Assembly (NCBI RefSeq): GCF_001955715.1
Contig: NZ_CP019239.1
Span: 2,914,001-2,978,000 of the forward strand
Direction of reading: 5' to 3'
DNA from: Rhodoferax saidenbachensis
Lineage (GTDB): Bacteria > Pseudomonadota > Gammaproteobacteria > Burkholderiales > Burkholderiaceae_C
DNA length: 64,000 nt
The translations under genes and the position numbers were made by a program. Numbering within the stretch: the first letter of the stretch is position 1; the number at the start of each line of letters is the position of its first letter. Shown here piece by piece: positions 36,355 through 64,000 of this stretch. Under the pieces are notes generated by a model. The model made no database searches. It saw only the letters and a list, made by a program, of their open reading frames with translations, and was not told where the DNA came from.

Positions 36355-36420
36355 ACCGCGCTGCAGGCCCTAAACTCTGTGGTTTCAGCTGATTGGCGCG
36401 CTTCTTGCGCCAGTGCTTCC

Positions 36421-37068
36421 ATGTCTGACGCCCTGCGCATTGTTGTCATTACTGCCGACCTGGATGTTGCCGACCCGGCCGACAGCCATGCGCTGGAGCA
36501 GGCCGAGCGCTCGCGCAGCCTGCGCATTGGCCTGCTGGAAAGCGGCTTCAACCTGGTGGCCTCGCTGCCGGCCGACGTGTTTCTGACCGAACGGCTGGCC
36601 CAGTTGCAGCCCGACCTGATCATTGTGGACGCCGAAAGCGACGCCCGTGACGCGCTGGAACACGTGGTCATGGCCACGCGAGACGCGCGCCGCCCCATTG
36701 TCATGTTCACCAACGACAACGACACCGCCAACGCGCGTGCCGCTGTAGCAGCGGGTGTGTCGGCCTATATCGTGGCCGGACTGCAGTCAGAACGTATCCG
36801 CCCCATCCTGGACGTGGCGCTGGCCCGCTTCCAGCACGAACAGGCCCTGCGCCAGGAGCTGGCCGCCACCCGCAGCGAGCTGCAAGAACTCAGCACCGAA
36901 CTCAAGGACCGCAAGGTCATCGACCGCGCCAAAACCCTGCTCATGGAGCGCCAGAATCTCAGTGAAGAAGCGGCCTACGCCAAGCTGCGCAAGACCGCGA
37001 TGGACAAGAACCTCAAAATCGTGGACGTGGCCCAGCGCATGCTGGATGTGGCTGACCTACTGAGCTAG
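36421..37068 (+). CDS. nasT: ANTAR-domain RNA-binding regulator, NasT type
   Basis: NasT-type proteins bind paired hexaloop hairpins in leader RNA and prevent termination. The protein has 215 residues from the ATG at 36421. The N-terminal receiver-like domain has the acceptor-like aspartate in LQPDLIIVDAES, but the usual lysine region reads AYIVAGL, so phosphorylation is doubtful. A coiled coil (near 140-160) leads to the ANTAR domain (RKVIDRAKTLLMERQNLSEE...KTAMDKNLKIVDVAQRML). In other species NasT is held by the nitrate sensor NasS; no nasS lies next to it here. A TGGCGC/GCGCCA hairpin at 36394-36412 sits just before the start. Its likely target is the leader at 41599. Confidence 0.9.
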   Translation: MSDALRIVVITADLDVADPADSHALEQAERSRSLRIGLLESGFNLVASLPADVFLTERLAQLQPDLIIVDAESDARDALEHVVMATRDARRPIVMFTNDNDTANARAAVAAGVSAYIVAGLQSERIRPILDVALARFQHEQALRQELAATRSELQELSTELKDRKVIDRAKTLLMERQNLSEEAAYAKLRKTAMDKNLKIVDVAQRMLDVADLLS

Positions 37069-40146: not shown

Positions 40147-40908
40147 ATGAAAATAGGACTGATCGGGTATGGCAAGGCAGGCACAGCAGTAGCCCATGTT
40201 CTCAATGAAGACCCCAGGTACACGCTGCAGTGGATCGCGACCCGTACCGGCGCGCCCGGGCCCGTGGCTGTGGGGGACACCGCCATCCCTGTGGTGGCAC
40301 TGTCTGAAGCCACTTTGGGGCCGTGGCTAGACCAGCACCCGGTGGACGCACTGGTGGATTTTTCGGGCGCGGAATCCGTGCAGGTCTATGGTGAGGAGGT
40401 CAGACGGCGGGCCCTGACCCTGGTCACGGCCATTTCTGCGTACGACGATGCCCAGTTGGCCTACGTGCGCACGCTGGGCGATGCGGCCAAGGTGCTGTGC
40501 TCGCCCAACATGACCGTTGGCATCAATTTCCTGATCATGGCAGCCCGACTGCTCCGGGAGATTGCACCCTTTGCCGACGTCGAAATTCTGGAACAGCACT
40601 TTCGGGACAAACCCGAGGTGTCCGGCACCGCCAAGAAAATCGCCGAAAGCCTGGACATCAGCGGTGACAAGATCACCTCGATGCGTTTGGGCGGTATCGT
40701 TGGCCACCACGAGGTGATCTTCGGGTTTCCGTACCAGACCGTGCGCCTCATCCACAACTCCATCAAACGGGAGGCGTTTGGCACAGGCGCTGCCTTTGCA
40801 CTGAATGAGCTGCAAAACTGCCCCCACGGGTTCTACACCTTCGATGATCTTCTGATGCAGAGACTGCGCAAGCAGATCCTGGCGGGGAGCGGGGAATCAC
40901 TCCACTGA
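40147..40908 (+). CDS. Divergent dihydrodipicolinate reductase-like protein
   Basis: This is a 253-residue protein of the DapB fold. The N-terminal Rossmann motif reads GLIGYGKAGTAV rather than the usual GxxGRMG. The active-site block EILEQHFRDKPEVSGTAKKI keeps one histidine and the lysine of the standard motif, but the DAPSGTA part is altered to EVSGTA. It is therefore probably a paralogue with another substrate, not the housekeeping lysine enzyme. The start (ATG at 40147, AGGAG 8 bases upstream) is clear. It is followed by a MarR gene, and faces the CLC gene. Confidence 0.8.
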   Translation: MKIGLIGYGKAGTAVAHVLNEDPRYTLQWIATRTGAPGPVAVGDTAIPVVALSEATLGPWLDQHPVDALVDFSGAESVQVYGEEVRRRALTLVTAISAYDDAQLAYVRTLGDAAKVLCSPNMTVGINFLIMAARLLREIAPFADVEILEQHFRDKPEVSGTAKKIAESLDISGDKITSMRLGGIVGHHEVIFGFPYQTVRLIHNSIKREAFGTGAAFALNELQNCPHGFYTFDDLLMQRLRKQILAGSGESLH

Positions 40909-40958: not shown

Positions 40959-41447
40959 ATGAAAACCGCCAAGCCCTCTGCGAGCCAAACCGACAATGCA
41001 GCGCTGGCCCTCAGGCGATTCCGGGTCGTGTTCAATGCGGTGCGCACCCACTTTCGACACGTCGAAAAAGAAACCGGTTTGGGTGGCGCGCAGGTATGGG
41101 CGCTGAGCCTGATTCAGCAGAACCCGGGCATGGGTGTTGGTGAAGTCTCCGCCAAAATGGACATCCACCAGTCGACGGCCAGCAACCTGATCAAGATACT
41201 CGTCAAAAAGGACCTGCTCACCCTGTCCAAGTCGGATGGAGACAAACGCGCCGTTGAGCTGCGTGTGACAGCAGAGGGAAAGAAGGCGATCAAGAAGATA
41301 CCGGGGCCGTTTGAAGGCGTACTGCCTGAGGCGCTCAGGCAACTGGACGATGCAACCCTCGCCAGCCTGAACCGCGATCTGGAAAAGCTGATGCATGTGT
41401 TGGAAGCGGACGAGGACGCCGGGAGCATCCCTTTGGCCCATCTATAG
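40959..41447 (+). CDS. MarR-family transcriptional regulator
   Basis: This winged-helix dimeric regulator has 162 residues. The recognition region VGEVSAKMDIHQSTASNLIKI (near residues 61-81) and the wing LLTLSKSDGDKRAVELRVTAEG are typical for MarR. It lies 50 bases after the DapB-like gene and may control that gene and the divergent CLC-Usp pair through the palindromes at 40066-40114. The ligand is unknown. Confidence 0.88.
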   Translation: MKTAKPSASQTDNAALALRRFRVVFNAVRTHFRHVEKETGLGGAQVWALSLIQQNPGMGVGEVSAKMDIHQSTASNLIKILVKKDLLTLSKSDGDKRAVELRVTAEGKKAIKKIPGPFEGVLPEALRQLDDATLASLNRDLEKLMHVLEADEDAGSIPLAHL

Positions 41448-41464: not shown

Positions 41465-41479
41465 GCACAACGCCGGTGC
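41465..41479 (+). promoter_or_regulatory. NtrC-like enhancer site
   Basis: GCAC, seven bases, GTGC matches the core spacing of NtrC (GlnG) sites. It lies about 130 bases before the predicted start of transcription, a normal enhancer distance for sigma-54 promoters. Confidence 0.6.
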
Positions 41480-41489
41480 TCGCTCTAGT

Positions 41490-41557
41490 TTTTGCATCAA
41501 ATAGGCCTCTAGCCCTTGCACAGATTGCGCAAGCAGCTACTTTTTTCATAGCAAAAA
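41490..41557. repeat. Dispersed repeat family A, copy between enhancer and promoter
   Basis: The copy reads TTTGCATCAAATAGGCCTCT, AGCCCTTGCACAG, then ATTGCGCAAGCAGCTAC and a degenerate right arm ending CATAGC. It occupies the space between the NtrC-like site and the sigma-54 promoter and changes their distance and possibly DNA bending. Confidence 0.8.
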
Positions 41558-41572
41558 TACGCCGGAATCATC

Positions 41573-41588
41573 TGGCACAAACATTGCA
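41573..41588 (+). promoter_or_regulatory. Sigma-54 promoter of the nitrate-assimilation operon
   Basis: TGGCAC, AAACA, TTGCA matches the -24/-12 consensus TGGCAC-N5-TTGCW exactly. The predicted start of transcription is near 41599. Together with the upstream NtrC-like site it implies induction under nitrogen limitation. Confidence 0.88.
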
Positions 41589-41598
41589 TAAGTCCTGC

Positions 41599-41729
41599 TG
41601 AGACCCAGTAGGGTCGTACGTAAAGAGGGTCCAACGGCGGGCTCTCACCGCGTACACAGGACAAAGGCGTCCCCACAGGTTCATCGCGCACAGCGCTGTG
41701 AACCTTGTGTGGACGCCTTTTTTGTTTTT
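41599..41729 (+). promoter_or_regulatory. ANTAR-responsive antitermination leader
   Basis: Two hairpins carry hexaloops with A at position 1 and G at position 4, the known ANTAR target pattern. Hairpin P1 (41625-41646) has eight base pairs (two wobbles) and loop AACGGC. Hairpin P2 (41659-41672) has stem GGAC/GTCC and loop AAAGGC. P2 uses the same bases as the 5' arm of the terminator that follows, so both cannot form together. A NasT-type protein encoded at 36421 is the probable binder. This matches the design of the Klebsiella nas leader and other ANTAR RNAs. Confidence 0.85.
41664..41729 (+). terminator. Intrinsic terminator in the nrtA leader (attenuator)
   Basis: The 5' arm starts AAGGCGTCCCCACAGGTTCA and the 3' arm (TGAACCTTGTGTGGACGCCTT) pairs with one mismatch and one bulge, followed by TTTTTTGTTTTTG. 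It ends about 35 bases before the nrtA start and would stop transcription unless P2 forms. Confidence 0.92.
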
Positions 41730-41763
41730 GTTTTTACCTTTCGCAACTTCTGGAGCGTGTGCC

Positions 41764-43008
41764 ATGACTGATCTTCTGAAAGCCAAACTCAGCCGCCGTG
41801 CGGTTTTGCAGACCGCCGCCGTGGGTGCCATCGGCATCGACCCCGCGCTGCGCGCTGCGGTGTATGCCGCCGGCTCCGACGCGCCGGAAAAGACCGAGGT
41901 CAAGATCGGCTTCATCCCGCTGACCGACTGCGCCAGCGTGGTCATGGCCTCGGTACTGGGCATCGACAAGAAATACGGCGTCACCATCATCCCGTCCAAA
42001 GAAGCCAGTTGGGCCGGTGTGCGCGACAAGCTGGTCAATGGCGAGCTGGACTTTGCCCACGTGTTGTACGGCCTGGTCTACGGCGTGCACTTAGGCATTG
42101 GTGGCCCCAAGAAAGACATGGCGGTACTGGCCACCCTCAACAACAACGGCCAAGCCATCACGTTGTCCAAAAAGCTGGCGGACAAAGGCGCTGTAGACGG
42201 CGCGGGCCTGGCCAAACTGATGGCCAGCGAGAAACGCGAATACACCTTTGCACAGACCTTCCCCACCGGCACCCACGCCATGTGGCTGTACTACTGGCTG
42301 GCGGCCAACGGCATCAACCCGATGAAGGACTCCAAGGTCATCACCGTACCGCCGCCCCAGATGGTGGCCAACATGCGCGTCGGCAATATGGACGGCTTCT
42401 GCGTGGGCGAGCCCTGGAACCACCGCGCCATCATTGACGGCATTGGCGTGACGGCAACCACCACCCAGGACATCTGGAAAGACCACCCCGAAAAAGTGCT
42501 GGGCACCACGGGCGACTTCGTCAAGAAATACCCCAACACCGCACGCGCTGTGACGGCCGCGATTCTGGAAGCCGGCCGCTGGATTGACGCCAGCCTGTCC
42601 AACAAAAACAAGATGGCCGAAACCATCGCCGACAAGAGCTACGTGAACACCAGCGTGGACGCCATCAACCAGCGCATTCTGGGCCGTTACCAAAACGGCA
42701 TGGGCAAGACCTGGGACGACCCGAACTACATGAAGTTCTACAACGACGGAGCGGTGAACTTCCCCTACCTGTCGGACGGCATGTGGTTCCTGACCCAACA
42801 CAAACGCTGGGGCTTGCTCAAAGACCACCCCGACTACCTGGCCGTGGCCAAACAGATCAACCAGATCGACATCTACAAACAGGCCGCTACCGCCAGCAAA
42901 ACACCGGTGCCCAAGAGCGATATGCGCAGCAGCAAGCTCATGGACGGTGTGGTCTGGGACGGCAAAGATCCCAAGAAGTACGCCGACAGTTTCAAGGTCA
43001 AGGCTTAA
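41764..43008 (+). CDS. nrtA: Nitrate ABC transporter substrate-binding protein
   Basis: This periplasmic nitrate (or nitrite) receptor of the NrtA/CmpA/NasF family has 414 residues. The N-terminus has a twin-arginine motif SRRAVLQ followed by a hydrophobic stretch, so Tat export is likely. Family signatures include FIPLTDCASVVMA, PSKEASWAGVRDKL and NMDGFCVGEPWN. I chose the ATG at 41764 with GGAG about 10 bases upstream; an in-frame start at 41698 lies inside the terminator. It is the first gene of the operon, controlled by the sigma-54 promoter and the leader. Confidence 0.95.
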   Translation: MTDLLKAKLSRRAVLQTAAVGAIGIDPALRAAVYAAGSDAPEKTEVKIGFIPLTDCASVVMASVLGIDKKYGVTIIPSKEASWAGVRDKLVNGELDFAHVLYGLVYGVHLGIGGPKKDMAVLATLNNNGQAITLSKKLADKGAVDGAGLAKLMASEKREYTFAQTFPTGTHAMWLYYWLAANGINPMKDSKVITVPPPQMVANMRVGNMDGFCVGEPWNHRAIIDGIGVTATTTQDIWKDHPEKVLGTTGDFVKKYPNTARAVTAAILEAGRWIDASLSNKNKMAETIADKSYVNTSVDAINQRILGRYQNGMGKTWDDPNYMKFYNDGAVNFPYLSDGMWFLTQHKRWGLLKDHPDYLAVAKQINQIDIYKQAATASKTPVPKSDMRSSKLMDGVVWDGKDPKKYADSFKVKA

Positions 43009-43032
43009 GCCACTTCCAACCGGGAGATCACC

Positions 43033-43977
43033 ATGGTCAGCGCTGTTTTCCACTCCCCCTGGGCCCCGGTGGCCGAGGGAAACGCTATCAAAAAAGAAGC
43101 TGCTCACGCAGATTCCACAAGGGCTACAGCCCTAAAAGGCACTGAAATGCAAGCAACGACAGCAACCCCTGCCCCCGCAACCAAGCCCGGTTACGACTGG
43201 CGCGGCCTGTTCCTGGTGGTGGTGCCGCCGCTGCTGGGCCTGGCCCTGCTGGTGGGCATCTGGGCGCTGGTGAGTGTCGGTACGGCTGCCAGCATCCCTG
43301 GCCCGCTGGAGACCTGGAAACAAGCCGTCGTGTTGTTCAGCGATCCGTTCTACCGCAAGGGTCCCAATGACCAAGGCGTGGGCTGGAACGTGTTGTTCTC
43401 GCTGGAGCGTGTGGCGCTGGGCTTTGGCCTGGCCGCCGCGGTGGGCATCCCTGCGGGTTTCATGATCGGCCGCTTTGAGTTTTTGAGCCGCATGTTCAAC
43501 CCGCTTATCAGTCTGCTGCGCCCCGTCTCTCCCTTGGCTTGGCTGCCGATTGGTTTGCTGGTGTTCAAGGGTGCCAACCCGGCCGCCATCTGGACCATCT
43601 TCATCTGCTCCATCTGGCCCATGATCATCAACACCGCCGTCGGTGTGCAGCGCGTGCCGCAGGATTACATGAACGTCGCGCGTGTGCTGAACCTCTCCGA
43701 GTGGAAGATCGTCACCAAGATCCTCTTCCCCTCGGTGCTGCCCTACATGCTGACTGGCGTGCGCCTGGCAGTCGGTACGGCCTGGCTCGTGATCGTGGCG
43801 GCAGAGATGCTGACCGGTGGCGTGGGCATTGGCTTCTGGGTGTGGGACGAGTGGAACAACCTGAACGTCAAGAACATCATCATCGCCATCTTCGTGATCG
43901 GCATCGTCGGACTGGTTCTGGAATACGCGCTAATCAAGATCGCCAGCGCATTCACATTTGAAGAGGTGAAGTCATGA
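43033..43977 (+). CDS. nrtB: Nitrate ABC transporter permease
   Basis: This inner-membrane permease of the NrtB/SsuC family has 314 residues and about six helices. The cytoplasmic coupling (EAA) loop is visible as [20 protein letters not shown]. The ATG at 43033 has GGGAG before it and is my choice. Between it and the next in-frame ATG at 43147 the sequence is mainly a family A repeat, so residues about 18-36 of the N-terminus are repeat-derived. It overlaps the ATPase gene by 4 bases. Confidence 0.93.
43085..43140. repeat. Dispersed repeat family A, copy inside the nrtB 5' end
   Basis: GCTATCAAAAAAGAAGCTGC, TCACGCAGATTCCAC and AAGGGCTACAGCCCT match the reverse orientation of the family, with some decay. 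It is in frame with nrtB if translation begins at 43033. Confidence 0.7.
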
Positions 43978-44819
43978 GCATCCCTGCCACCACCGTCAGC
44001 TCCAACCCCAAGTACATCGAGATCCAGGGCGTTGAGCAAACCTTCAAGACCAAGAAGGGCCTGTTCCCCGCGCTGCGCGACATCAACCTCACGGTTGCCA
44101 AGGGCGAGTTCGTCGCACTGATCGGCCACTCAGGTTGCGGCAAGTCCACCTTGCTGAACCTGATAGCCGGGCTGACCACGCCCACCGCAGGTTCGCTGAT
44201 CTGCGCCAACCGCGAGATCGCTGGCCCCGGCCCCGAGCGCGCGGTGGTGTTCCAGAACCATTCGCTCTTGCCTTGGCTCACCTGTTTTGAAAACGTCTAC
44301 CTCGGCGTGGAGCGTGTTTTTGGTGCGCGCAACCCTGGTGCCGCTGCAGAAAACAAAGCCCAGCTCAAGGACCGCACCGATGCCGCGCTGGCGCTAGTGG
44401 GCCTGACCGCTGCCACACAAAAACGCCCTGGCGAAATCAGCGGTGGCATGAAACAACGCGTCGGCATTGCCCGCGCGCTGGCCATGGAACCCAAAGTGCT
44501 GCTGATGGACGAACCCTTTGGTGCACTGGACGCGCTGACCCGCGCCAAGCTGCAGGACGAGCTGCTGGAGATCGTGGCCCGCACCCACAGCACCGTGGTG
44601 ATGGTGACGCACGATGTGGACGAAGCCGTGCTGCTGTCCGACAAGATCGTGATGATGACCAACGGCCCGGCCGCCACGATTGGCGAAGTGCTCAGCGTGG
44701 ACCTGCCCCGCCCACGCAACCGCGTGGCACTGGCCGACAGCCCCGAGTACCTGCACTACCGCAAGGCCGTGATTGATTTCCTCTACACGCGCCAGGCGCA
44801 TGTAGAAAAAGCCGCCTAA
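43974..44819 (+). CDS. nrtD: Nitrate ABC transporter ATP-binding protein
   Basis: This is the ATPase that powers nitrate uptake, 281 residues. Walker A (GHSGCGKST near residue 50), Q-loop ([10 protein letters not shown]), signature (SGGMKQR), Walker B ([12 protein letters not shown]) and switch histidine ([10 protein letters not shown]) are all present. It has only the ATPase domain, like NrtD and Klebsiella NasD, and lacks the extra receptor-like domain of NrtC. It is 4 bases overlapping nrtB and 10 bases before nirB. Confidence 0.95.
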
Positions 44820-44829
44820 GGAGCACGAC

Positions 44830-47328
44830 ATGGACATGCGCCCTCCCCCAAAACTCAAACTGGTCATGGTCGGCAACGGCATGGCCGGTGTACGCACCAT
44901 TGAAGAGCTGCTCAAGGTCGCTCCCGACCTGTACGACATCACCGTCTTTGGTGCTGAGCCGCACCCCAACTACAACCGCATCCTGTTGTCGCCCGTGCTC
45001 GCCGGTGAGCAGACACTGGACGAGATCGTGTTGAACTCCTGGGACTGGTACAAGGACAACAACATCACGCTGCACGCGGGCAAGAAAGTCACCGAAGTCG
45101 ACCGCGTCAAACGCATCGTGCGTGCCGAAGACGGCACCGAAGCCGAATACGACCGCCTGCTGCTGTGCACCGGCTCCAACCCCTTCATCCTGCCCCTGCC
45201 CGGCAAGGACCTGGAAGGCGTGATCGCCTACCGCGACATTGCCGACACCAACGCGATGATCGACGCTGCGGTCAAGTACAAACACGCGGTCGTCATCGGC
45301 GGTGGCCTGCTGGGCCTGGAAGCCGCCAACGGCCTGATGCTGCGCGGCATGACGGTCAGCGTGGTGCACGTGATGCCCACGCTGATGGAGCGCCAGCTCG
45401 ACAGCGTGGCCGGCAAGCTGCTGCAGAAGTCGCTGGAAGACCGCGGCCTGCAGTTCCTCATGGGTGCGCAGACGCAGGAGCTACTCCCTGCCGTTCGCCC
45501 TGAGCCTGTCGAAGGGCCTGCGGGGCTTCGACAAGCTCAGCCCGAACGGGTTGGTTCGGTCAAGTTCAAGGACGGCACCGAAGTCGCCGCCGACCTGGTT
45601 GTGATGGCCGTGGGCATTCGCCCCAACACTCAGCTTGCCGAAAGCATGCGCCTGCATTGCAGCAAGGGCATTGTGGTCAACGACACCATGCAGACCGTGA
45701 CCGACGCGCGCATCTACAGCGTGGGTGAATGCGCGGCGCACCGTGGCATTGCCTATGGCCTGGTGGCACCTTTGTTTGAGCAGGCCAAAGTGGCAGCGAA
45801 CCATCTGGCACAGATGGGCATTGGTCGCTACCAGGGCTCGCTCACCTCCACCAAGCTCAAAGTCACCGGTATCGACCTGTTCAGCGCCGGTGAATTCATG
45901 GGCGGAGAAGGCACCGAAGAAATCGTGATGAGCGACCCGTTTGGCGGCGTCTATAAAAAGCTGGTGCTCAAGGACGACAAGCTGGTCGGTGCCTGCCTGT
46001 ATGGCGACACGGTGGACGGCAGTTGGTACTTCAAGCTCTTGCGCGACGGCCGCAGCATTGCCGACATCCGCGACAAGCTGATGTTCGGCGAAAGCAATAT
46101 CGGTGACGTGGGCCACGCCGGCCACAACAAGGCCGCGAGCATGGCCGACAGCGACGAGGTCTGCGGCTGCAATGGCGTCAACAAAGGCACCATCTGCAAA
46201 GCCATCAAGGAAAAGGGCCTGTTCACGCTGGACGAGGTCAAGAAACACACCAAGGCCAGCGCGTCGTGCGGTTCATGCACCGGTTTGGTCGAACAAATTT
46301 TGATGTTCACCGCCGGTGGCGACTACTCCGCCACGCCCAAGAAGAAGGCCATGTGCAGTTGCACCGAGCACAGCCACCAGGAAGTGCGCGATGCCATCTT
46401 CAAGGAAAAATTCCTCACCATCGCCCAAGTGCAACAGGGCATGGACTGGAAAACGCCCAACGGCTGCTCCAGCTGCCGCCCTGCATTGAACTATTACCTG
46501 ATCTCCAGCTGGCCCAAAGAAGCCAAGGACGATCCGCAAAGCCGCTTCATCAACGAACGCAGCCACGCCAACATCCAGAAGGACGGCACCTACTCGGTCA
46601 TCCCGCGCATGTGGGGCGGCGAGACCACGGCCAACGAGCTGCGCAAGATTGCCGACGCAGTGGACAAGTACAAGATCCCTACCGTCAAGGTGACCGGCGG
46701 CCAGCGTATCGACCTGCTGGGCGTGAAGAAAGAAGACCTCCAAGCCGTGTGGAAGGACATCGGCATGCCCAGCGGCCACGCCTACGCCAAGGCCCTGCGC
46801 ACGGTGAAGACCTGCGTGGGCTCCGAGTGGTGCCGCATGGGCACCCAGGACAGCACCCAGATGGGCAAGGACCTGGAACGCGCCCACTGGCGCATGTATG
46901 CACCACACAAGGTCAAGTACGCCGTCTCCGGCTGCCCGCGCAATTGCGCCGAGGCTGGCATCAAGGACGTGGGCATCATCGGCGTGGACAGCGGCTGGGA
47001 GATGTACATCGCCGGCAACGGCGGCATCAAGACCGAGGTGGCGCATTTCTTCGTCAAGCTCAAAACGACTGAAGAAGTGCTGGAGTACACCGGTGCCTTC
47101 ATGCAGCTCTACCGCAAGGAAGGCTGGTACCTGGAACGCACCGTGCACTTTGTGAGCCGCGTGGGTCTGGACTATGTGAAGAAGCGCATTCTGGAAGACG
47201 CCGAAGGCCGCAAAGCCCTGAACGAGGAACTGCTGTTCGCACTGGACGGTGAGCCCGATCCCTGGTTTGACTTCCAGGACGCGCAGGTCGACACCCGCCA
47301 GTTCGACAAGCTGAGCGTCCCCGCCTAA
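44830..47328 (+). CDS. nirB: NADH nitrite reductase large subunit
   Basis: This enzyme reduces nitrite to ammonium in the cytoplasm with NADH, FAD, a BFD-type [2Fe-2S] region, a [4Fe-4S] cluster and siroheme. The FAD and NADH Rossmann motifs (VGNGMAGVRT and VIGGGLLGLEAANG) come first. Cysteines in DEVCGCNGVNKGTIC and CGSCTG follow, then the siroheme/4Fe-4S motif CVGSEWC...CPRNC. The length is 832. Residues about 221-240 (AVRPEPVEG...LRQAQPERVG) are translated from a family B repeat, inserted in a loop of the NADH domain region. The NirD partner follows. Confidence 0.97.
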   Translation: MDMRPPPKLKLVMVGNGMAGVRTIEELLKVAPDLYDITVFGAEPHPNYNRILLSPVLAGEQTLDEIVLNSWDWYKDNNITLHAGKKVTEVDRVKRIVRAEDGTEAEYDRLLLCTGSNPFILPLPGKDLEGVIAYRDIADTNAMIDAAVKYKHAVVIGGGLLGLEAANGLMLRGMTVSVVHVMPTLMERQLDSVAGKLLQKSLEDRGLQFLMGAQTQELLPAVRPEPVEGPAGLRQAQPERVGSVKFKDGTEVAADLVVMAVGIRPNTQLAESMRLHCSKGIVVNDTMQTVTDARIYSVGECAAHRGIAYGLVAPLFEQAKVAANHLAQMGIGRYQGSLTSTKLKVTGIDLFSAGEFMGGEGTEEIVMSDPFGGVYKKLVLKDDKLVGACLYGDTVDGSWYFKLLRDGRSIADIRDKLMFGESNIGDVGHAGHNKAASMADSDEVCGCNGVNKGTICKAIKEKGLFTLDEVKKHTKASASCGSCTGLVEQILMFTAGGDYSATPKKKAMCSCTEHSHQEVRDAIFKEKFLTIAQVQQGMDWKTPNGCSSCRPALNYYLISSWPKEAKDDPQSRFINERSHANIQKDGTYSVIPRMWGGETTANELRKIADAVDKYKIPTVKVTGGQRIDLLGVKKEDLQAVWKDIGMPSGHAYAKALRTVKTCVGSEWCRMGTQDSTQMGKDLERAHWRMYAPHKVKYAVSGCPRNCAEAGIKDVGIIGVDSGWEMYIAGNGGIKTEVAHFFVKLKTTEEVLEYTGAFMQLYRKEGWYLERTVHFVSRVGLDYVKKRILEDAEGRKALNEELLFALDGEPDPWFDFQDAQVDTRQFDKLSVPA
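45491..45549. repeat. Dispersed repeat family B, two-arm copy inside nirB
   Basis: CCGTTCGCCCTGAGCCTGTC and its mirror TTCGACAAGCTCAGCCCGAA flank a short centre. The element keeps the nirB frame open and encodes RPEPVEG and LRQAQPERV. Confidence 0.92.
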
Positions 47329-47339
47329 CCCGCATTTTT

Positions 47340-47409
47340 ATATCAAATAGGCCTGTAGCCCTTATGGAATGTGCGCAAGCAGCTATTAAAACAATAGCTA
47401 TTTGCGCAG
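47340..47409. repeat. Dispersed repeat family A, full copy between nirB and nirD
   Basis: The copy reads ATATCAAATAGGCCTGTAGC, CCTTATGGAATG, then arms TGCGCAAGCAGCTATT and AATAGCTATTTGCGCA. This is the best-preserved full element in the window and could serve as the reference. It interrupts an otherwise tight operon. Confidence 0.9.
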
Positions 47410-47427
47410 TCAGTGGAAGGAATTGAT

Positions 47428-47814
47428 ATGAGCGACTGGAAGAAAATTTGCCTGGTGACCGACATCCCGGTGCTCGGCTCGCGCTGCGTGGCGCGCCCGC
47501 AAGGCATGGACGTGGCCGTGTTTCGCAACGCGCAGGACGAGGTGTTTGCGCTCCTGGACCGCTGCCCGCACAAGGGCGGCCCCTTGAGCCAGGGCATCGT
47601 GTTTGGCACCAGCGTGGCCTGCCCGCTGCACAACTGGACCATTGGCATGGCCGACGGCTGCGCCCAGGCGCCCGATGAAGGCTGCACGCCCAAATTCGCG
47701 GTGAAGGTGGAAGGCGGCGCCGTGCACCTGGACGCCACCGAACTGGCCACCCATGCGCTGGACCTGGCGGCGCCCGTGGCCGGACCACAGCAGAAAGAAA
47801 CCGCAGCGGTATGA
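47428..47814 (+). CDS. nirD: NADH nitrite reductase small subunit, Rieske type
   Basis: This small partner of NirB has 128 residues. It keeps a complete Rieske [2Fe-2S] ligand set: CPHKGG and, about 17 residues later, CPLHNW. Some NirD proteins, including that of Escherichia coli, have lost these residues, so this version is probably redox-active. The start is the ATG at 47428 (MSDWKKICL). It overlaps nasA by 4 bases. Confidence 0.93.
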   Translation: MSDWKKICLVTDIPVLGSRCVARPQGMDVAVFRNAQDEVFALLDRCPHKGGPLSQGIVFGTSVACPLHNWTIGMADGCAQAPDEGCTPKFAVKVEGGAVHLDATELATHALDLAAPVAGPQQKETAAV

Positions 47815-50789
47815 AAGTAATACCCGTTCGGGCTGAGCTGAATTCTTCCGTTCGGGCTGAGCCTGTCGAAGCCCTTCGACAAGCTCAGGGCGAACGGGTG
47901 GGATTGGATCAGAGCGAGCGGGACCTGGTACGTGAAACACGTTCCACTTGCCCGTACTGTGGGGTGGGTTGCGGCGTCATCATTGAATCGAGAGATAACC
48001 AGATCACCGGTGTGCGCGGTGATCCGCACCACCCAGCCAACTTCGGGCGCCTGTGCACCAAGGGCTCGACGCTGCACCTGACGGCCAGCGCGGAGGTGAC
48101 GCTGCAAACCCGGCTGTTGCGCCCCCTGCAGCGGCTGCAACGCGGTGGCGTGTTGTACCCCGTGGGCTGGGACGATGCGCTGGACAACGCCGCCCAACGC
48201 TTTGCCGGCATCGTGCAGAGCGATGGCCCCGACGCGGTGGGCTTTTATGTCAGCGGCCAGTTGCTCACCGAAGACTATTACGTCTTCAACAAGCTGGCCA
48301 AGGGGCTGATAGGCACCAACAACATCGACACCAACTCGCGCCTGTGCATGAGCAGTGCCGTGGCGGGTTACAAAAAGACGCTGGGCGCCGACGCGCCACC
48401 GGCCTGTTACGACGATGTGCGCCATGCAGCGTGCATCTTCATCGTCGGCTCCAACACGGCCTACGCGCACCCCATCTTGTTTCGCCGTATTGAAGACGCC
48501 AAACGCGCCAACCCGGCCCTCAAGATCATCTTCTGCGACCCGCGCAAGACCGACACCGCCGAGATTGCCGACCTGTTCCTACCCATCCAGCCCGGCACCG
48601 ATGTGATGCTGTTCAACGGCATGTTGCACATCATGCTGTGGGAGGGCTGGACGGACGCGGCCTACGTCGCCGCACACACCACCGGTTTTGAAGAGCTGAA
48701 AGCGCTGGTGCGTGACTGCACGCCCGATGTGGTGGCGCAAACCTGCGGCATCTCCAAAGCCGACCTGCTGGAAGCCGCGCGCCTGTTCGCAACCTCGCCC
48801 GCCACGCTGAGCCTGTACTGCCAGGGCCTGAACCAGTCCAGCAGTGGCACGGCCAAAAACACCGCCCTGATCAACCTGCACCTGGCCACCGCCCAGATCG
48901 GCAAGCCCGGCGCCGGCCCGTTCTCATTGACCGGCCAGCCCAATGCGATGGGTGGGCGTGAAGTGGGCGGCCTGGCGAATCTGATGTCCGCGCACCGCGA
49001 CATGGCCAACCCGGAGCACCGCGCCGAAGTCGCCGCGCTGTGGGGCGTTCCCACGGTGCCCGACAAGCCCGGCAAGACCGCCGTGGAGATGTTCCAGGCC
49101 GCGGCTGACGGCGAGATCAAGGCGCTGTGGATTGCCTGCACCAACCCCGCGCAAAGCATGCCCGACCAGGCCACGGTGCGCCGCGCGCTGGAGCGCGCCG
49201 AGTTTGTGGTGGTGCAAGAGGCTTTCTCCACCACCGCCACTTGCCGCTTTGCCGACCTGCTGCTGCCCGCCACCACCTGGGGTGAAAAAGAAGGCACCGT
49301 CACCAACAGCGAACGCCGCATTTCCCGCGTGCGCGCCGCCGTGCCCGCACCCGGAGAAACCCGCCATGACTGGAAAATTGCGGTGGACTTTGCGCAGCGG
49401 CTAGAGAGGCTCATTTCCGTTCGCCCTGAGCCCGTCGAAGGGCATGATGCCAGCACATTCTCTGAGCTTCGACAAGCTCAGCCCGAACGGAAGGGTGGTT
49501 TATTCCCCTACCCCACCCCCGAATCGGTCTGGAACGAACACCGCGAATCCACGCGCGGGCGCGACCTCGACATCACTGGCATGGACTACGCCATGCTTGA
49601 AGCCGCGCCCCAACAGTGGCCCTTGCGTGAAGGTGAAACCCAAGGCGTGGCGCGCCTGTACACCGACGGTGTGTTTCCCACCGCAGACGGCAAAGCGCGC
49701 TTTGTGGCGAGCGCGTACAAAGAAGTCGCCGAACCACGCGAATCGCGTTACCCGTTCTCCCTGACCACCGGGCGCCTGCGCGACCAGTGGCACGGCATGA
49801 GCCGCACCGGCACGCTCGGCCGCCTGTTTGGCCATGTGCGCGAACCGTCCCTGCTCATGCACCCGCAAGACATGGACCGGCGTATCTTGAAAGAAGGCGA
49901 TCTGGTGCACGTCACCAGCAAACGCGGCTCCATCCTGGTGCCGGTGCAGGCCAGTAGCGAGCTGGGCCTGTCGCAGGTCTTCATGGCCATGCACTGGGGC
50001 GAAGAATTTTTAAGCGGCATGGGCAGCACCGGCCAACGCCTGGCGGGTGTCAACGCACTCACCACCTCGGCCTACTGCCCCGACTCCAAACAACCCGAGT
50101 TCAAACACGCTGCCGTCAAAGTGCTCAAGGCCGATCTGCCGTGGTCGCTGTTGGCCATGGCTTGGCTGCCAGACGACCAGGTGCTGGACGCACGCACCTG
50201 GCTGCAGTCGCTGATGGGGCGTTTCCCCTATGCCAGTTGCACCCCGTTTGCCAACCAGACAGCGCTGGGCGCTACAGGCGGGCAGCGCCAGGGCGTGTTG
50301 TTCCGCGCGGCTGCCCACGAAGCGCCCGATCCTGCGCTGATCGCCCAGATCGAATCCATCCTGCAACTCGATGGTGCCGAGGTGGTGCGGTATGCCGACC
50401 CCAAACGGGGCCAGCGCCGCGCGGCGCGTCTGGTCCGGCGCACGCTGGATGCCAATGCCACGCTGGAAGGTGTTTTGCTGGCGGGCGACACCAGCGCGCA
50501 AGGCTGGATCAGCGCCCTGCTGCAGGACGAGCAGCCCGCACAGGCCTACGCCCGCGCCCTGATGGCGCCCGGTGCACAGCCCCCCACCACCGTGGCGTCA
50601 CGCGGCAAAACCGTGTGCACCTGCTTCAACGTCACCGATATGGCCATCGACAGCTACCTGGCCGACTGCCCGGGTGATGCCAAACAACGCCTGGAATCAC
50701 TGCAATCCACCCTGAAATGCGGCACCAATTGCGGCTCGTGTGTGCCGCAACTGCAACGCATGGTCCGAGTGTCATCAATACCGGCATAG
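47811..50789 (+). CDS. nasA: Assimilatory nitrate reductase catalytic subunit
   Basis: This cytoplasmic bis-MGD molybdoenzyme reduces nitrate to nitrite. The N-terminal [4Fe-4S] ligands are C47, C50, C54 and C82 (CPYCGVGC ... GRLCTKG). The molybdopterin domains and the dinucleotide-binding domain follow, and a C-terminal BFD-like [2Fe-2S] domain (VCTCFNV ... CGTNCGSC) ends the 992 residues, so electrons may come directly from a reductase. Two family B repeats are translated in frame: near residues 5-30, just after the start, and near residues 537-560. The ATG overlaps the nirD stop. Whether the first repeat moved the natural start is unclear. Confidence 0.96.
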   Translation: MKVIPVRAELNSSVRAEPVEALRQAQGERVGLDQSERDLVRETRSTCPYCGVGCGVIIESRDNQITGVRGDPHHPANFGRLCTKGSTLHLTASAEVTLQTRLLRPLQRLQRGGVLYPVGWDDALDNAAQRFAGIVQSDGPDAVGFYVSGQLLTEDYYVFNKLAKGLIGTNNIDTNSRLCMSSAVAGYKKTLGADAPPACYDDVRHAACIFIVGSNTAYAHPILFRRIEDAKRANPALKIIFCDPRKTDTAEIADLFLPIQPGTDVMLFNGMLHIMLWEGWTDAAYVAAHTTGFEELKALVRDCTPDVVAQTCGISKADLLEAARLFATSPATLSLYCQGLNQSSSGTAKNTALINLHLATAQIGKPGAGPFSLTGQPNAMGGREVGGLANLMSAHRDMANPEHRAEVAALWGVPTVPDKPGKTAVEMFQAAADGEIKALWIACTNPAQSMPDQATVRRALERAEFVVVQEAFSTTATCRFADLLLPATTWGEKEGTVTNSERRISRVRAAVPAPGETRHDWKIAVDFAQRLERLISVRPEPVEGHDASTFSELRQAQPERKGGLFPYPTPESVWNEHRESTRGRDLDITGMDYAMLEAAPQQWPLREGETQGVARLYTDGVFPTADGKARFVASAYKEVAEPRESRYPFSLTTGRLRDQWHGMSRTGTLGRLFGHVREPSLLMHPQDMDRRILKEGDLVHVTSKRGSILVPVQASSELGLSQVFMAMHWGEEFLSGMGSTGQRLAGVNALTTSAYCPDSKQPEFKHAAVKVLKADLPWSLLAMAWLPDDQVLDARTWLQSLMGRFPYASCTPFANQTALGATGGQRQGVLFRAAAHEAPDPALIAQIESILQLDGAEVVRYADPKRGQRRAARLVRRTLDANATLEGVLLAGDTSAQGWISALLQDEQPAQAYARALMAPGAQPPTTVASRGKTVCTCFNVTDMAIDSYLADCPGDAKQRLESLQSTLKCGTNCGSCVPQLQRMVRVSSIPA
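47823..47898. repeat. Dispersed repeat family B, compound copy at the nasA 5' end
   Basis: Three arms are present: two forward arms (CCGTTCGGGCTGAG twice) and one reverse arm (TTCGACAAGCTCAGGGCGAA). They begin 12 bases after the nasA start codon. Confidence 0.9.
49418..49490. repeat. Dispersed repeat family B, two-arm copy inside nasA
   Basis: CCGTTCGCCCTGAGCCCGTC and the mirror TTCGACAAGCTCAGCCCGAA surround a 26-base centre. It encodes SVRPEPVEG and LRQAQPERKG without breaking the reading frame. Confidence 0.92.
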
Positions 50790-53495: not shown

Positions 53496-54479
53496 ATGGC
53501 CATTGGCAAGTACATCAAGGAAATCGGACGCGGCAAGGACGGTGCCCGCGCGCTGAACCGCGAGCAGGCGACGGACCTGTTCGGTCAGGTGCTGGACGGC
53601 ACAGTGACCGATCTGGAGATTGGCGCCTTTTGCCTGGCCATGCGCATCAAGGGCGAAACCGCTGAAGAAATGGCCGGTTTTCTGGACGCCACGGCTGCGC
53701 GCCTGCAGCACCTGCCCGCCAGCGACCGGCCCACGGTGGTCATCCCCAGCTACAACGGCGCGCGCAAGCTGCCGCTGCTGACACCGCTGCTGGCGTTGCT
53801 GCTGGCCCGTGAGGGCTTGCCGGTGCTGATCCACGGCACGGCCACCGAGTCCACCCGGGTTTTTACGTCAGAAGTGCTCGCAGCCCTTGGTATACCTGCG
53901 CAAGCAGCTATTCAAAAGATAGCAAATGGTGAGGTGGCGTTTGCCCCCACCGCCCTGCTGTGCCCCGGGCTGCAGCGCCTGCTGGAGGTACGCCGCGTGG
54001 TGAACCTGCGCAACCCGGCGCACAGCCTGGTCAAGCTCATGAACCCGTGCGTGGGCAAAAGCCTGATCGTCAGCAGCTACACCCACCCCGAATACGCGAT
54101 CTCCATGGCCGCCACCTTTGCACTCACCCAGGCCAACGCCCTGCTGCTGCGCGGCACCGAGGGCGAGGCCGTGGCCGACCCGCGCCGCACGCCCACGATG
54201 CAGGCCTTTGTGAACGGCCAGACCTTTACCTTGCAGGAGCACCAGGCCGGCCCACTGACCAGCCTGCCCAACCTGCCCACGCAACTGGACGCAGCCACCA
54301 CGGCCGCCTATATTCAAAGCGTGATGTCCGGCGCGCAACCCGTGCCTGCCCCCATCGCGCAACAGGTGGCCCACATCTTGCAATTGGTCAAAACACTTGA
54401 GCCCCCAAGCTCACATTCGTTCGCGGCTCCCCAAGGGGGCGCTGCCTCCCTTGAGGCGGCTCGGCAGGAGGCACTATGA
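53496..54479 (+). CDS. ybiB: YbiB-family protein (TrpD2-like, anthranilate phosphoribosyltransferase fold)
   Basis: This protein of 327 residues is related to anthranilate phosphoribosyltransferase but belongs to the YbiB/TrpD2 branch, members of which bind nucleic acid rather than catalyse tryptophan synthesis. The N-terminus MAIGKYIKEIGRGKDGARAL and the motif VIPSYNGARKLPLLTPLLALLL are typical. Two repeats are translated in frame: a family A copy near residues 129-144 and a family D copy forming the C-terminal tail (SHSFAAPQGGAASLEAARQ). It overlaps cobA by 4 bases, so it belongs to the nitrate operon. Its role there is unknown. Confidence 0.88.
   Translation: MAIGKYIKEIGRGKDGARALNREQATDLFGQVLDGTVTDLEIGAFCLAMRIKGETAEEMAGFLDATAARLQHLPASDRPTVVIPSYNGARKLPLLTPLLALLLAREGLPVLIHGTATESTRVFTSEVLAALGIPAQAAIQKIANGEVAFAPTALLCPGLQRLLEVRRVVNLRNPAHSLVKLMNPCVGKSLIVSSYTHPEYAISMAATFALTQANALLLRGTEGEAVADPRRTPTMQAFVNGQTFTLQEHQAGPLTSLPNLPTQLDAATTAAYIQSVMSGAQPVPAPIAQQVAHILQLVKTLEPPSSHSFAAPQGGAASLEAARQEAL
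53880..53925. repeat. Dispersed repeat family A copy inside ybiB
   Basis: GCAGCCCTTGGTATACCTGC and GCAAGCAGCTATTCAAAAG with ATAGCA match the left and first arm of the family. It is read in frame as part of ybiB. Confidence 0.75.
54402..54464. repeat. Dispersed repeat family D copy at the ybiB 3' end
   Basis: The inverted element CCCCCAAGCTCACATTCG, CTCCCCAAGGGGGCGCTGCC, CTTGAGGCGGCTCGG is translated as the last residues of YbiB and carries the region just before the cobA ribosome binding site. Confidence 0.8.
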
Positions 54480-61781: not shown

Positions 61782-62458
61782 ACACGGCTTTGAACACCGC
61801 CGCCCCCCCCCAAGGCGTGAAGGCCCCCTCGGCGGGCAGCGCAGTACACGCAGTGACAAGCGTGGGGGCCACACCCGATGCGGTGAAGATCGGCATCGTT
61901 TCCATCAGCGACCGCGCCTCCAGCGGCGTGTATGAAGACAAGGGCTTGCCCGCGCTGCAAGCGTGGCTCGGCAAAGCCCTGCACAACCCCATCACGTTTG
62001 ACGCGCGCCTGATCCCTGACGAGCAGGCCACCATCAGCGCCACCCTGATTGCGCTGGTGGATGCCGGCTGCGCATTGGTGCTGACCACCGGCGGCACCGG
62101 CCCCGCCATCCGCGATGTGACACCTGAGGCCACACTGGCCGTGGCACACAAGGAAATGCCGGGTTTTGGTGAGCAGATGCGCGCCATCAGCCTGCACTTT
62201 GTGCCCACCGCGATCCTCTCGCGCCAAGTAGCGGTGATTCGCGACCAGTCGTTGATCATCAACCTGCCGGGTCAGCCCAAGGCGATTGCCGAAACGCTGG
62301 AAGGGCTGAAGGATGCCGACGGCAAACAACTGGTCAACGGCATCTTTGCCGCCGTGCCCTATTGCATTGATTTGATTGGCGGGCCGTATCTGGAAACGGT
62401 AGACGCCGTGTGCAAGGCCTTCCGGCCAAAAAGCGCCGTACGCCCGAGTCGCGCCTAG
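61778..62458 (+). CDS. mogA: Molybdopterin adenylyltransferase
   Basis: MogA adenylates molybdopterin before molybdenum insertion and is needed by molybdoenzymes such as the nitrate reductase encoded earlier. The conserved core starts near residue 35 (VKIGIVSISDRASSGVYEDKG), with the motif TTGGTGPAIRDVTPEA. The frame opens with TTG at 61778, overlapping the darP stop, and residues about 8-33 are translated from a family D repeat. No later start codon is well placed, since GTG at 61884 begins the core itself (VKIGIV). So the start is uncertain: 226 residues from TTG, about 191 from the GTG. Confidence 0.92.
   Translation: MNTALNTAAPPQGVKAPSAGSAVHAVTSVGATPDAVKIGIVSISDRASSGVYEDKGLPALQAWLGKALHNPITFDARLIPDEQATISATLIALVDAGCALVLTTGGTGPAIRDVTPEATLAVAHKEMPGFGEQMRAISLHFVPTAILSRQVAVIRDQSLIINLPGQPKAIAETLEGLKDADGKQLVNGIFAAVPYCIDLIGGPYLETVDAVCKAFRPKSAVRPSRA
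61798..61870. repeat. Dispersed repeat family D copy inside the mogA 5' end
   Basis: GCCGCCCCCCCCCAAGGCG, GGCCCCCTCGGCGGGCAGCG and ACACGCAGTGACAAGCGTGG follow the family order. It is read in frame if mogA starts at the TTG. Confidence 0.85.
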
Positions 62459-62465
62459 AAAAATA

Positions 62466-62527
62466 TGTCAAATCGGGCTCTAGCCCGCATTTGGATTGCG
62501 CAAGCAGCTATCATAGTGATAGCAATC
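62466..62527. repeat. Dispersed repeat family A copy after mogA
   Basis: GTCAAATCGGGCTCTAGCCC, GCATTTGGATTGCGCAAGC and AGCTATCATAGTGATAGCAA form a full copy, directly downstream of mogA and facing cysE. Confidence 0.88.
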
Positions 62528-63405: not shown

Positions 63406-64000
63406 CTAGCCGGTCAAACCGGGTTTGCCGTCTATAGCCACCAATCCCACACCCGCAGTCGGTGCTTGGCCACGGCGCTGCAGGATGGCTTTGGCAATGC
63501 CGCGCAGGATGTGGATTTCTTCCTGCGTGACTTGGGCGCGATTGAACAAGGCGTTCAGGCGTGGCATCAGCTTCTTGGGTGCGGCCGGGTCCAGAAACTC
63601 CAGCGCGACGAGTGACTGCTCCAGGTGGGCCAGCATGCCGGCCACCTGGGCCGCGTCAGCAAGACCCGCCCCCGTTCGGGTTGGGCCCGTCGAAGCCTGC
63701 AACCCTTCGACAGGCTCAGGGAGAACGGAATCGGAAAAACCACCCAGCGCCAGCCGCCATTCATACGCAATCACCTGCAGCGCCGCACCGATATTGAGCG
63801 AACCAAACTGCGGGTTGCTGGGAATGCTCAGGGCCACATGGCAGCGGTACACATCTTCGTTGCGCATGCCGAAACGCTCGGAACCAAACAGAAACGCAAT
63901 GCCGGTTTGTTCCAACACACCGGAATTCGGTGCCAAATCGCCCTCCAGCCCCGATGGAACCTGCGCAAGCAGCTCCCCTTTTGATAGCAATTCGAAGTGT
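63406..64000 (-). CDS. trmJ: tRNA/rRNA methyltransferase of the TrmJ type, 3' part (start lies beyond the window)
   Basis: This SPOUT-fold enzyme 2'-O-methylates residue 32 of tRNAs. The frame is open to the right edge, so the start is outside. Visible motifs include [19 protein letters not shown] and [23 protein letters not shown], which form the SAM knot, and a C-terminal helical domain ([16 protein letters not shown]). Two repeats are translated in frame: family B near 63671-63728 (LPEPVEG) and a family A arm near 63959-63992 ([12 protein letters not shown]). Confidence 0.93.
63671..63728. repeat. Dispersed repeat family B copy inside trmJ
   Basis: CCCGTTCGGGTTGGGCCCGT and the mirror CCCTTCGACAGGCTCAGGGA show decayed left and good right arms. 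The reading frame of trmJ is kept. Confidence 0.8.
63959..63992. repeat. Dispersed repeat family A arm inside trmJ
   Basis: ACCTGCGCAAGCAGCTCCCC and TTTTGATAGCAATT resemble the two central arms with mismatches. It reaches almost to the window edge. Confidence 0.6.

Follow-up and report, generated by a model that had tools for sequence, protein, structure and literature searches.

A conserved leader of predicted NasT-type antitermination ahead of the nitrate assimilation operon of Rhodoferax saidenbachensis, in a genome where no NasS was found

The closest described counterparts of the locus analyzed here are the NasS–NasT systems of Paracoccus, Bradyrhizobium, Pseudomonas and Azotobacter, with which it has in common a NasT orthologue, an ANTAR leader and nitrate assimilation genes (PMC3795266, PMC4724949). 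NasS of Paracoccus and Bradyrhizobium holds NasT until nitrate frees it, and in nasS mutants the genes are expressed even when nitrate is absent, with no clear growth defect (PMC3795266, PMC4724949). Unlike these systems, which pair a receiver-like plus ANTAR protein, NasT, with a separate NasS that has no export signal, the locus of Rhodoferax saidenbachensis has the former and no separate NasS that we could find; the member of the NasS clade is the nitrate-binding protein of the operon itself, NrtA, which carries an export signal. A second point of comparison is the nasF leader of Klebsiella, read by NasR, for which PMC3369931 likewise describes an A1/G4 hexaloop hairpin 5′ of a terminator and ahead of nitrate assimilation genes. 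Whereas the reader of nasF has the NIT–ANTAR architecture (a nitrate-sensing domain plus ANTAR), a search of the R. saidenbachensis genome found a single ANTAR protein, NasT, which is without a nitrate-sensing domain. Klebsiella nasF is also Ntr-controlled.

We examined a window of 64,000 nucleotides (GCF_001955715.1, contig NZ_CP019239.1, positions 2,914,001 to 2,978,000, forward strand) from a genome that consists of a single contig of 4.26 Mb and is rated 100% complete; its nearest named relatives by NrtA, among the matches listed, are Curvibacter and Rhodoferax (family Comamonadaceae). The operon has the order nrtA-nrtB-nrtC-nirB-nirD-nasA (41764–50789), with the switch elements located upstream (Table 1). 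The nasT gene that the earlier note had placed in the window is present; its true start may be an in-frame ATG at 36421, and the receiver part of its product scores 21.8 bits, below the Pfam cut-off of 30.2. In the clade of this NasT, an N-terminal extension comprising the first 40 or so residues (36379–36540 in the window) is mostly unaligned with other NasT proteins. A DapB-like protein and a MarR-type regulator (40147–40908 and 40959–41447) separate nasT from the operon, unlike the arrangement in most of 40 mapped family loci, in which nasT adjoins nrtA.

Table 1. Features of the nitrate assimilation locus, in window coordinates
Feature	Position	Strand	Description or basis
nasT	36379..37068	+	receiver-like plus ANTAR protein; upstream of operon
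NtrC-type enhancer site	41465..41479	+	GCAC-N7-GTGC; sequence, conservation, phasing
Sigma-54 (-24/-12) promoter	41573..41588	+	TGGCAC-N5-TTGCA; sequence, kept in 78/78 relatives
P0, 5′-terminal hairpin	41602..41615	+	GACCC-AGTA-GGGTC; folding, alignment, covariation
P1 element	41616..41655	+	outer 6-bp stem 41616–41621/41650–41655; folding, covariation
P1 inner stem and loop	41625..41646	+	8-bp stem 41625–41632/41639–41646, hexaloop AACGGC 41633–41638
P2 antiterminator hairpin	41659..41672	+	GGAC-AAAGGC-GTCC; sequence, folding, alignment
Intrinsic terminator	41664..41729	+	stem 41664–41719, T tract 41718–41729
nrtA	41764..43008	+	nitrate-binding protein, Tat-type signal (SRRAVL); one clade with Pseudomonas-type NasS
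nrtB	43033..43977	+	ABC transporter permease, PF00528
nrtC	43974..44819	+	ABC transporter ATPase, PF00005
nirB	44830..47328	+	nitrite reductase large subunit
nirD	47413..47814	+	nitrite reductase small subunit, Rieske-like
nasA	47811..50789	+	assimilatory nitrate reductase, molybdopterin oxidoreductase

From the sequence comparisons below, we are highly confident in predicting that the operon leader works by NasT-type antitermination under NtrC/sigma-54 control and belongs to a known class, a reading that follows from comparative conservation, covariation and mutually exclusive P2 and terminator folds. The earlier note had proposed this dual control and had named an NtrC site, a sigma-54 promoter, two A1/G4 hexaloop hairpins and an overlapping terminator, each of which lies where it had been placed. 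Conservation, covariation and exclusive folding bear out the architecture. The activation of NasT is the part less well accounted for: in the systems studied, nitrate control by NasT requires NasS (PMC3795266, PMC4724949), and none was found here. Nor is having all parts in one place peculiar to this genome: a promoter and an NtrC site are the rule in the family, and some leaders adjoin NasR rather than NasT.

Within the 64 kb, both DNA motifs occur at chance frequency (one promoter match against 1.1 expected from shuffling, and four NtrC matches against 4.8), so neither is evidence by itself, and it is their conservation in relatives that is decisive for a real promoter and NtrC site. The relatives are the best 80 loci among the matches listed, all of them fetched, and with the exception of two without upstream sequence (L053 and L089), all 78 carry TGGCAY-N5-YTGC at 140–248 nt 5′ of nrtA. 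In a zone 30–180 nt 5′ of the promoter, counted over 77 loci with 1 kb of upstream sequence, the window included, the exact GCAC-N7-GTGC motif occurs in 63, against 0/77 and 0/77 in two control stretches; at one mismatch or fewer the count is 69/77, against 12 and 4. The distances between NtrC site and promoter group at about 87, 108, 119, 130, 141 and 151 nt, and a period of 10.8 bp fits their 39 distinct values best, with none of 2000 uniform draws equally strong in a comparison that leaves kinship among the loci uncontrolled. Helical phasing is expected if NtrC must occupy one face of the helix. The −24/−12 element is thus conserved in place, and the upstream enhancer is both conserved and helically phased. 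In Acidovorax citrulli, according to PMC10052978, an ntrC mutant is unable to use nitrate, and expression of the gene called nasS there goes down and that of nasT up.

The interval separating the NtrC site from the promoter contains a dispersed repeat of 48–71 nt that occurs at eight places in the window (41482–41552, 47328–47398, 53853–53923, 62453–62523, 63918–63988 and others); genome-wide it has at least 40 matches (40 of 328 candidates were scored), and of 77 relatives searched, eight have a stretch resembling it 5′ of their promoter. Inverted dispersed repeats also lie within the nirB and nasA frames (45483–45559, 47824–47907 and 49409–49500), where they insert protein runs such as RPEPVEG...LRQAQPER.

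Transcription from this promoter would start near 41599, and the predicted RNA from there to 41729 folds with a minimum free energy of −71.4 kcal/mol (z −9.25, 0/200 shuffles as good). The 5′ arm of the terminator starts inside the P2 loop and takes in the 3′ arm of P2. RNA ending at 41676 is predicted to form three hairpins, namely the 5′ one, P1 within its outer stem, and P2; when the RNA is extended to 41729, the terminator (−38.6 kcal/mol alone) displaces P2 (−5.0) in the predicted fold, so that folding the two as alternatives, as the earlier note had suggested, finds them exclusive. A simple terminator scan found none; the interruptions and length of the stem are outside the model of the scan. 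In an alignment of 54 leaders, chosen on P2 presence and distance and not on P1, A1 and G4 of the P1 loop are invariant in 54/54, whereas any of the four bases can occupy position 3. Two-sided changes support seven of the eight inner P1 pairs; counted over the structure as a whole, they fill 124 cells, compared with 47.4 for shuffles and no more than 45 for slid controls. In all 73 rows (of 79, window included) for which a picker that requires A1 and G4 selected a GGAC/GAAC-type P2, 10–13 of 13 positions of the P2 loop and 3′ arm pair with a T-flanked stretch further 3′. The picker took another hairpin in L052, L054, L056, L060 and L079; the P2 loop of four of these (L052, L054, L060 and L079) reads GAAGGC, with G at loop position 1, and P2 is not recognisable in L056 and L090. 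The leader has four features of the ANTAR class, namely two A1/G4 hexaloop hairpins, a P2 that excludes the terminator, an ANTAR protein in the genome and a conserved structure.

The P0 hairpin, which the earlier note did not include, is conserved (GACC...GGTC at the 5′ end) and covarying. We considered it as a third NasT site and rejected this, given that its closing position covaries around an RNRA-like or UUCG tetraloop (AU 11, CG 10, GC 8, UG 3, UA 2, not paired 19) and that the window copy is without A1/G4; of the 49 P0 hexamers in the alignment, 21 conform to A1/G4. P0 is probably a structural 5′ cap, a reading that gives no account of the P0 loops that read AACGAA. In Limnohabitans-like loci (L059, L065 and L073), P0 lies directly 5′ of P2 and P1 is absent. 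Some relatives have a second ANTAR leader match inside the nas region, an arrangement suggestive of an operon divided in two, each part under its own control (L117, 13483–13569; L213, 7049–7117; L221, 4197–4265; L212, 8099–8165).

Based on this arrangement, we posit that, under nitrogen limitation, phosphorylated NtrC located about 108 bp upstream would activate the sigma-54 promoter of nrtABC-nirBD-nasA, and that the transcript would fold the 5′ hairpin, then P1 and then P2. With no protein bound, the loop and 3′ arm of P2 would be drawn into the stronger terminator, ending transcription near 41729; a free NasT dimer on the A1/G4 hexaloops of P1 and P2 would instead hold P2 and block the terminator, allowing polymerase to proceed into nrtA. 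The binding of NtrC and NasT, the start site and the response to nitrogen and nitrate are what we infer from these elements, and the mechanism gives no account of how nitrate reaches NasT because no NasS was found.

That the leader is conserved is not enough to identify NasT as its reader, because the regulator beside the leader is NasR in some relatives. In the fetched stretches of the 80 relatives, we see NasT in 50, NasR in 18, both in one and neither in 11. In a draw of 100 family genomes, NasT matches of at least 91 bits occur in 49; 17 of the other 51 have an NrtA orthologue of at least 69% identity, and a NasR-kind ANTAR frame is found in the fetched stretch at 14 of these 17 NrtA loci (two cut by a contig end), with an ANTAR frame of 454–585 residues elsewhere in the remaining three genomes. 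A near exclusion of NasR and NasST has already been reported for Halomonas (PMC8014003).

The search of the complete host genome for NasS found none, a point that goes beyond the earlier note, and NrtA is its sole close relative there. The same pattern recurs in the family: 47 of the 49 NasT genomes have an NrtA with at least 61% identity to that of the window, the two without being a genome that is 65% complete (G008) and one in which nasT is cut at a contig end (G019). In the 46 of these 47 that were examined (G083 was not fetched), NrtA has a twin-arginine signal in 43 and is without a signal in three, and no separate NasS was seen in the 43 genomes with a Tat-type NrtA. Further NrtA-like proteins of 31–38% identity, with the NrtA2 type excluded, are encoded at 16 loci (L180–L195), none of which adjoins nasT; nrtB and nrtC are present at 14 of the 16 and in neither L185 (contig end) nor L195, both of which encode members of the same exported group. 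The NrtA-like paralogues of L180–L195, L259–L261 and L266, mostly accompanied by their own nrtB and nrtC, have an N-terminal cysteine-rich stretch, for example DPYDADRPLM-RCxCG, and in those read to the end a twin-arginine signal comes next.

The reading that we tentatively place first, at somewhat less than an even chance, is that NasT works without a nitrate sensor in these bacteria, such that antitermination would be always on or set by the level of NasT and nitrogen limitation alone would control the operon. It accords with the lack of a NasS in a complete genome and with the behavior of nasS mutants elsewhere, whose expression of the genes is nitrate-independent at no clear cost to growth (PMC3795266, PMC4724949). 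It also accords with the existence of NasT genomes that are without any NasS-clade protein: NasT stands beside or near another kind of NrtA in G477 and G368, which have one PF13379 protein each at E 1e-20, and beside or near a different NrtA in G337 and G294, and it occurs with NrtA2 only in G376, the last three having further PF13379 proteins of other kinds. However, 73 of 79 rows retain a terminator that overlaps P2, a retention difficult to reconcile with constant override, and some relatives have NasR, with its nitrate-sensing domain, at the same place. We give slightly more weight to this reading than to one in which NrtA is the sensor.

That second reading, which we consider possible but doubtful, is that NrtA also serves as NasS. 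Being a Tat substrate, NrtA is expected to fold in the cytoplasm before export, and the folded precursor without nitrate would hold NasT and release it when nitrate is bound, making one gene product a transporter subunit, a sensor and its own feedback regulator. No other candidate for NasS presents itself in the genome, where NrtA scores 346.9 bits against PF13379 and the runner-up 60.9. A tree of 91 binding proteins places the window NrtA and its orthologues from the family in a single clade with the five signal-less proteins and with Pseudomonas-type NasS from four loci, L176 included (SH-aLRT 99), separate from the remaining NasS and NrtA groups, and the support for this clade in a more careful tree of 51 proteins is 100/99. 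Four loci labelled NasT-associated in the larger tree (L046, L069, L085 and L088) in fact carry NasR, and the clade result is unaffected. The window protein has the export signal and adjacent nrtB and nrtC of an NrtA, its export being predicted from the signal, and it aligns over residues 34–413 with Synechocystis NrtA (2g29; E 2e-82), likewise a nitrate transport protein; unlike that entry, its clade also includes signal-less proteins beside NasT. The twin-arginine signal is present in 50/50 NasT-associated, 18/18 NasR-associated and 11/12 other NrtA proteins of the best 80 relatives (L089 is cut short), in 42/42 from further NasT loci and in 17/17 from genomes without a NasT match. It is absent in all five signal-less orthologues and in the four Pseudomonas-type NasS proteins (one judged by script, three by eye), so that the window NrtA shares the clade of the latter and not their lack of a signal peptide. 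Pseudomonas-type NasS retains the sequence AWVAGSDAPEK, resembling the end of the NrtA signal, AVYAAGSDAPEK, and a sigma-54-like site lies 5′ of its gene in 4/4 loci, as it does for nrtA.

Additional support comes from the signal-less orthologues (L124, L129, L160, L231 and L234), all of which are encoded in operons with an NrtA2-type transporter whose binding protein carries an export signal (partly judged by eye). Their genomes encode NasT in four cases and a NasT-sized ANTAR protein in the fifth (G628); the nasT frame of G040 has one in-frame TGA. We identified an NrtA2-type transporter in ten genomes, seven with NasT (counting the NasT-sized protein of G628) and three with an adjoining NasR (L228, L229 and L230), and the signal-less orthologue is present in 5/7 of the former and 0/3 of the latter. 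Of the other two NasT genomes, G251 (L232) has another NasS, and G376 (L233, 94% complete) yielded none in our search. Counting any signal-less NasS-like protein weakens the comparison to 6/7 against 1/3, the exception being G336 (L230; 85% complete, 6% contaminated), where a short contig of 3.7 kb that has no nasT encodes one from a different group. This case overturns the generalization that NasR genomes with NrtA2 never have such a protein, and it shifts the balance slightly from NrtA as the sensor toward NasT without one. In G047, the second PF13379 protein belongs to the exported group. As judged from sequence, the NrtA2 comparison leans toward NasT needing a signal-less partner, with small numbers and partly related lineages.

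Several results count against NrtA as the sensor. NasT occurs without a NasS-clade protein in the five genomes named above (G477, G368, G337, G294 and G376), and constraint on NrtA does not differ clearly between NasT and NasR genomes: a comparison of 93 NasT-associated with 32 NasR-associated sequences, the latter slightly more diverse, gave five positions against one, and we did not find it usable as a NasT-binding footprint. The direction of signal change is not settled by AU tests, which reject neither a single Tat clade (p 0.315) nor a single signal-less clade (p 0.282), and an NrtB tree, in which rows L059, L228 and L168 are fragments, makes no decision between gain and loss of the signal. 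There is also no conserved internal start for a cytoplasmic form; we rejected this route given that GTG encodes the valine preceding the mature end at 34 of 75 loci, compared with 1575 of 2543 valines overall, and that a Shine–Dalgarno-like stretch is present in none of the loci. The literature that we searched, which excluded most subscription journals, contains no report of NrtA acting as NasS. Extended to the family as a whole, the proposal would be that Tat-exported NrtA is the NasS orthologue and, while still a folded cytoplasmic precursor, a nitrate-responsive inhibitor of NasT, and that this gene occurs without its signal, as a cytoplasmic NasS, where another transporter takes over uptake; we judge this generalization, too, to be conceivable though unlikely. 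The variant is worth testing because no NasS is recognisable and NrtA is placed in the NasS clade.

A diverged NasS that went unrecognised elsewhere in the genome is improbable: five weaker PF13379 proteins do score above the cut-off (36–61 bits), but PF13379 matches over the cut-off also occur in 12 of 14 control genomes, and the NasS of G251, divergent as it is, reaches 223.5 bits.

A model built on the leader has one clear match in the host genome (64.4 bits, E 5e-13; next E 0.09), and at Rfam gathering cut-offs the 64-kb window contains tRNA only. In the comparison with Rfam that the earlier note had proposed, the two nearest families match the leader below their cut-offs: RF00625 (P11) matches 41573–41717 at 31.2 bits (E 3.5e-5; cut-off 70), and RF03032 (narK RNA) reaches 24.0 bits (cut-off 43.2). 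In nine fetched loci there are seven above-cut-off matches to these families, all in Pseudomonas-type loci, and six of the seven coincide with matches of the leader model (P11 in L164 and L166; narK RNA once in L163, twice in L164 and once in L166); the narK RNA match 5′ of nasS in L163 has no leader-model match at E 0.05. P11 stands 5′ of nirB in L166, and narK RNA stands 5′ of nasS in L163 and L164. P11 and narK RNA have in common with the window leader sequence features of the P1 loop and P2, and neither Rfam name mentions antitermination; the coinciding matches suggest that the two differently named families are ANTAR leaders. Antitermination in the nirBD leader of P. aeruginosa was reportedly described in a 2012 paper. 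The labelling of P11 as an sRNA and these matches could also be read as pointing to a terminated leader that acts in trans as a small RNA, for example by soaking up NasT, but we find this very improbable, given that attenuation alone explains the structure, the overlap with the terminator and the position 5′ of the operon.

The leader of R. saidenbachensis, read as one of NasT-type antitermination, adds a well-supported case to the known class of ANTAR leaders. In many genomes of the family, NasT occurs beside NrtA with no NasS found, though NasT is described as controlled by NasS; either a transporter subunit would moonlight as a sensor before its export, or NasT would work without a nitrate sensor, and both readings bear on how cytoplasmic sensors and the binding proteins of transporters interconvert.
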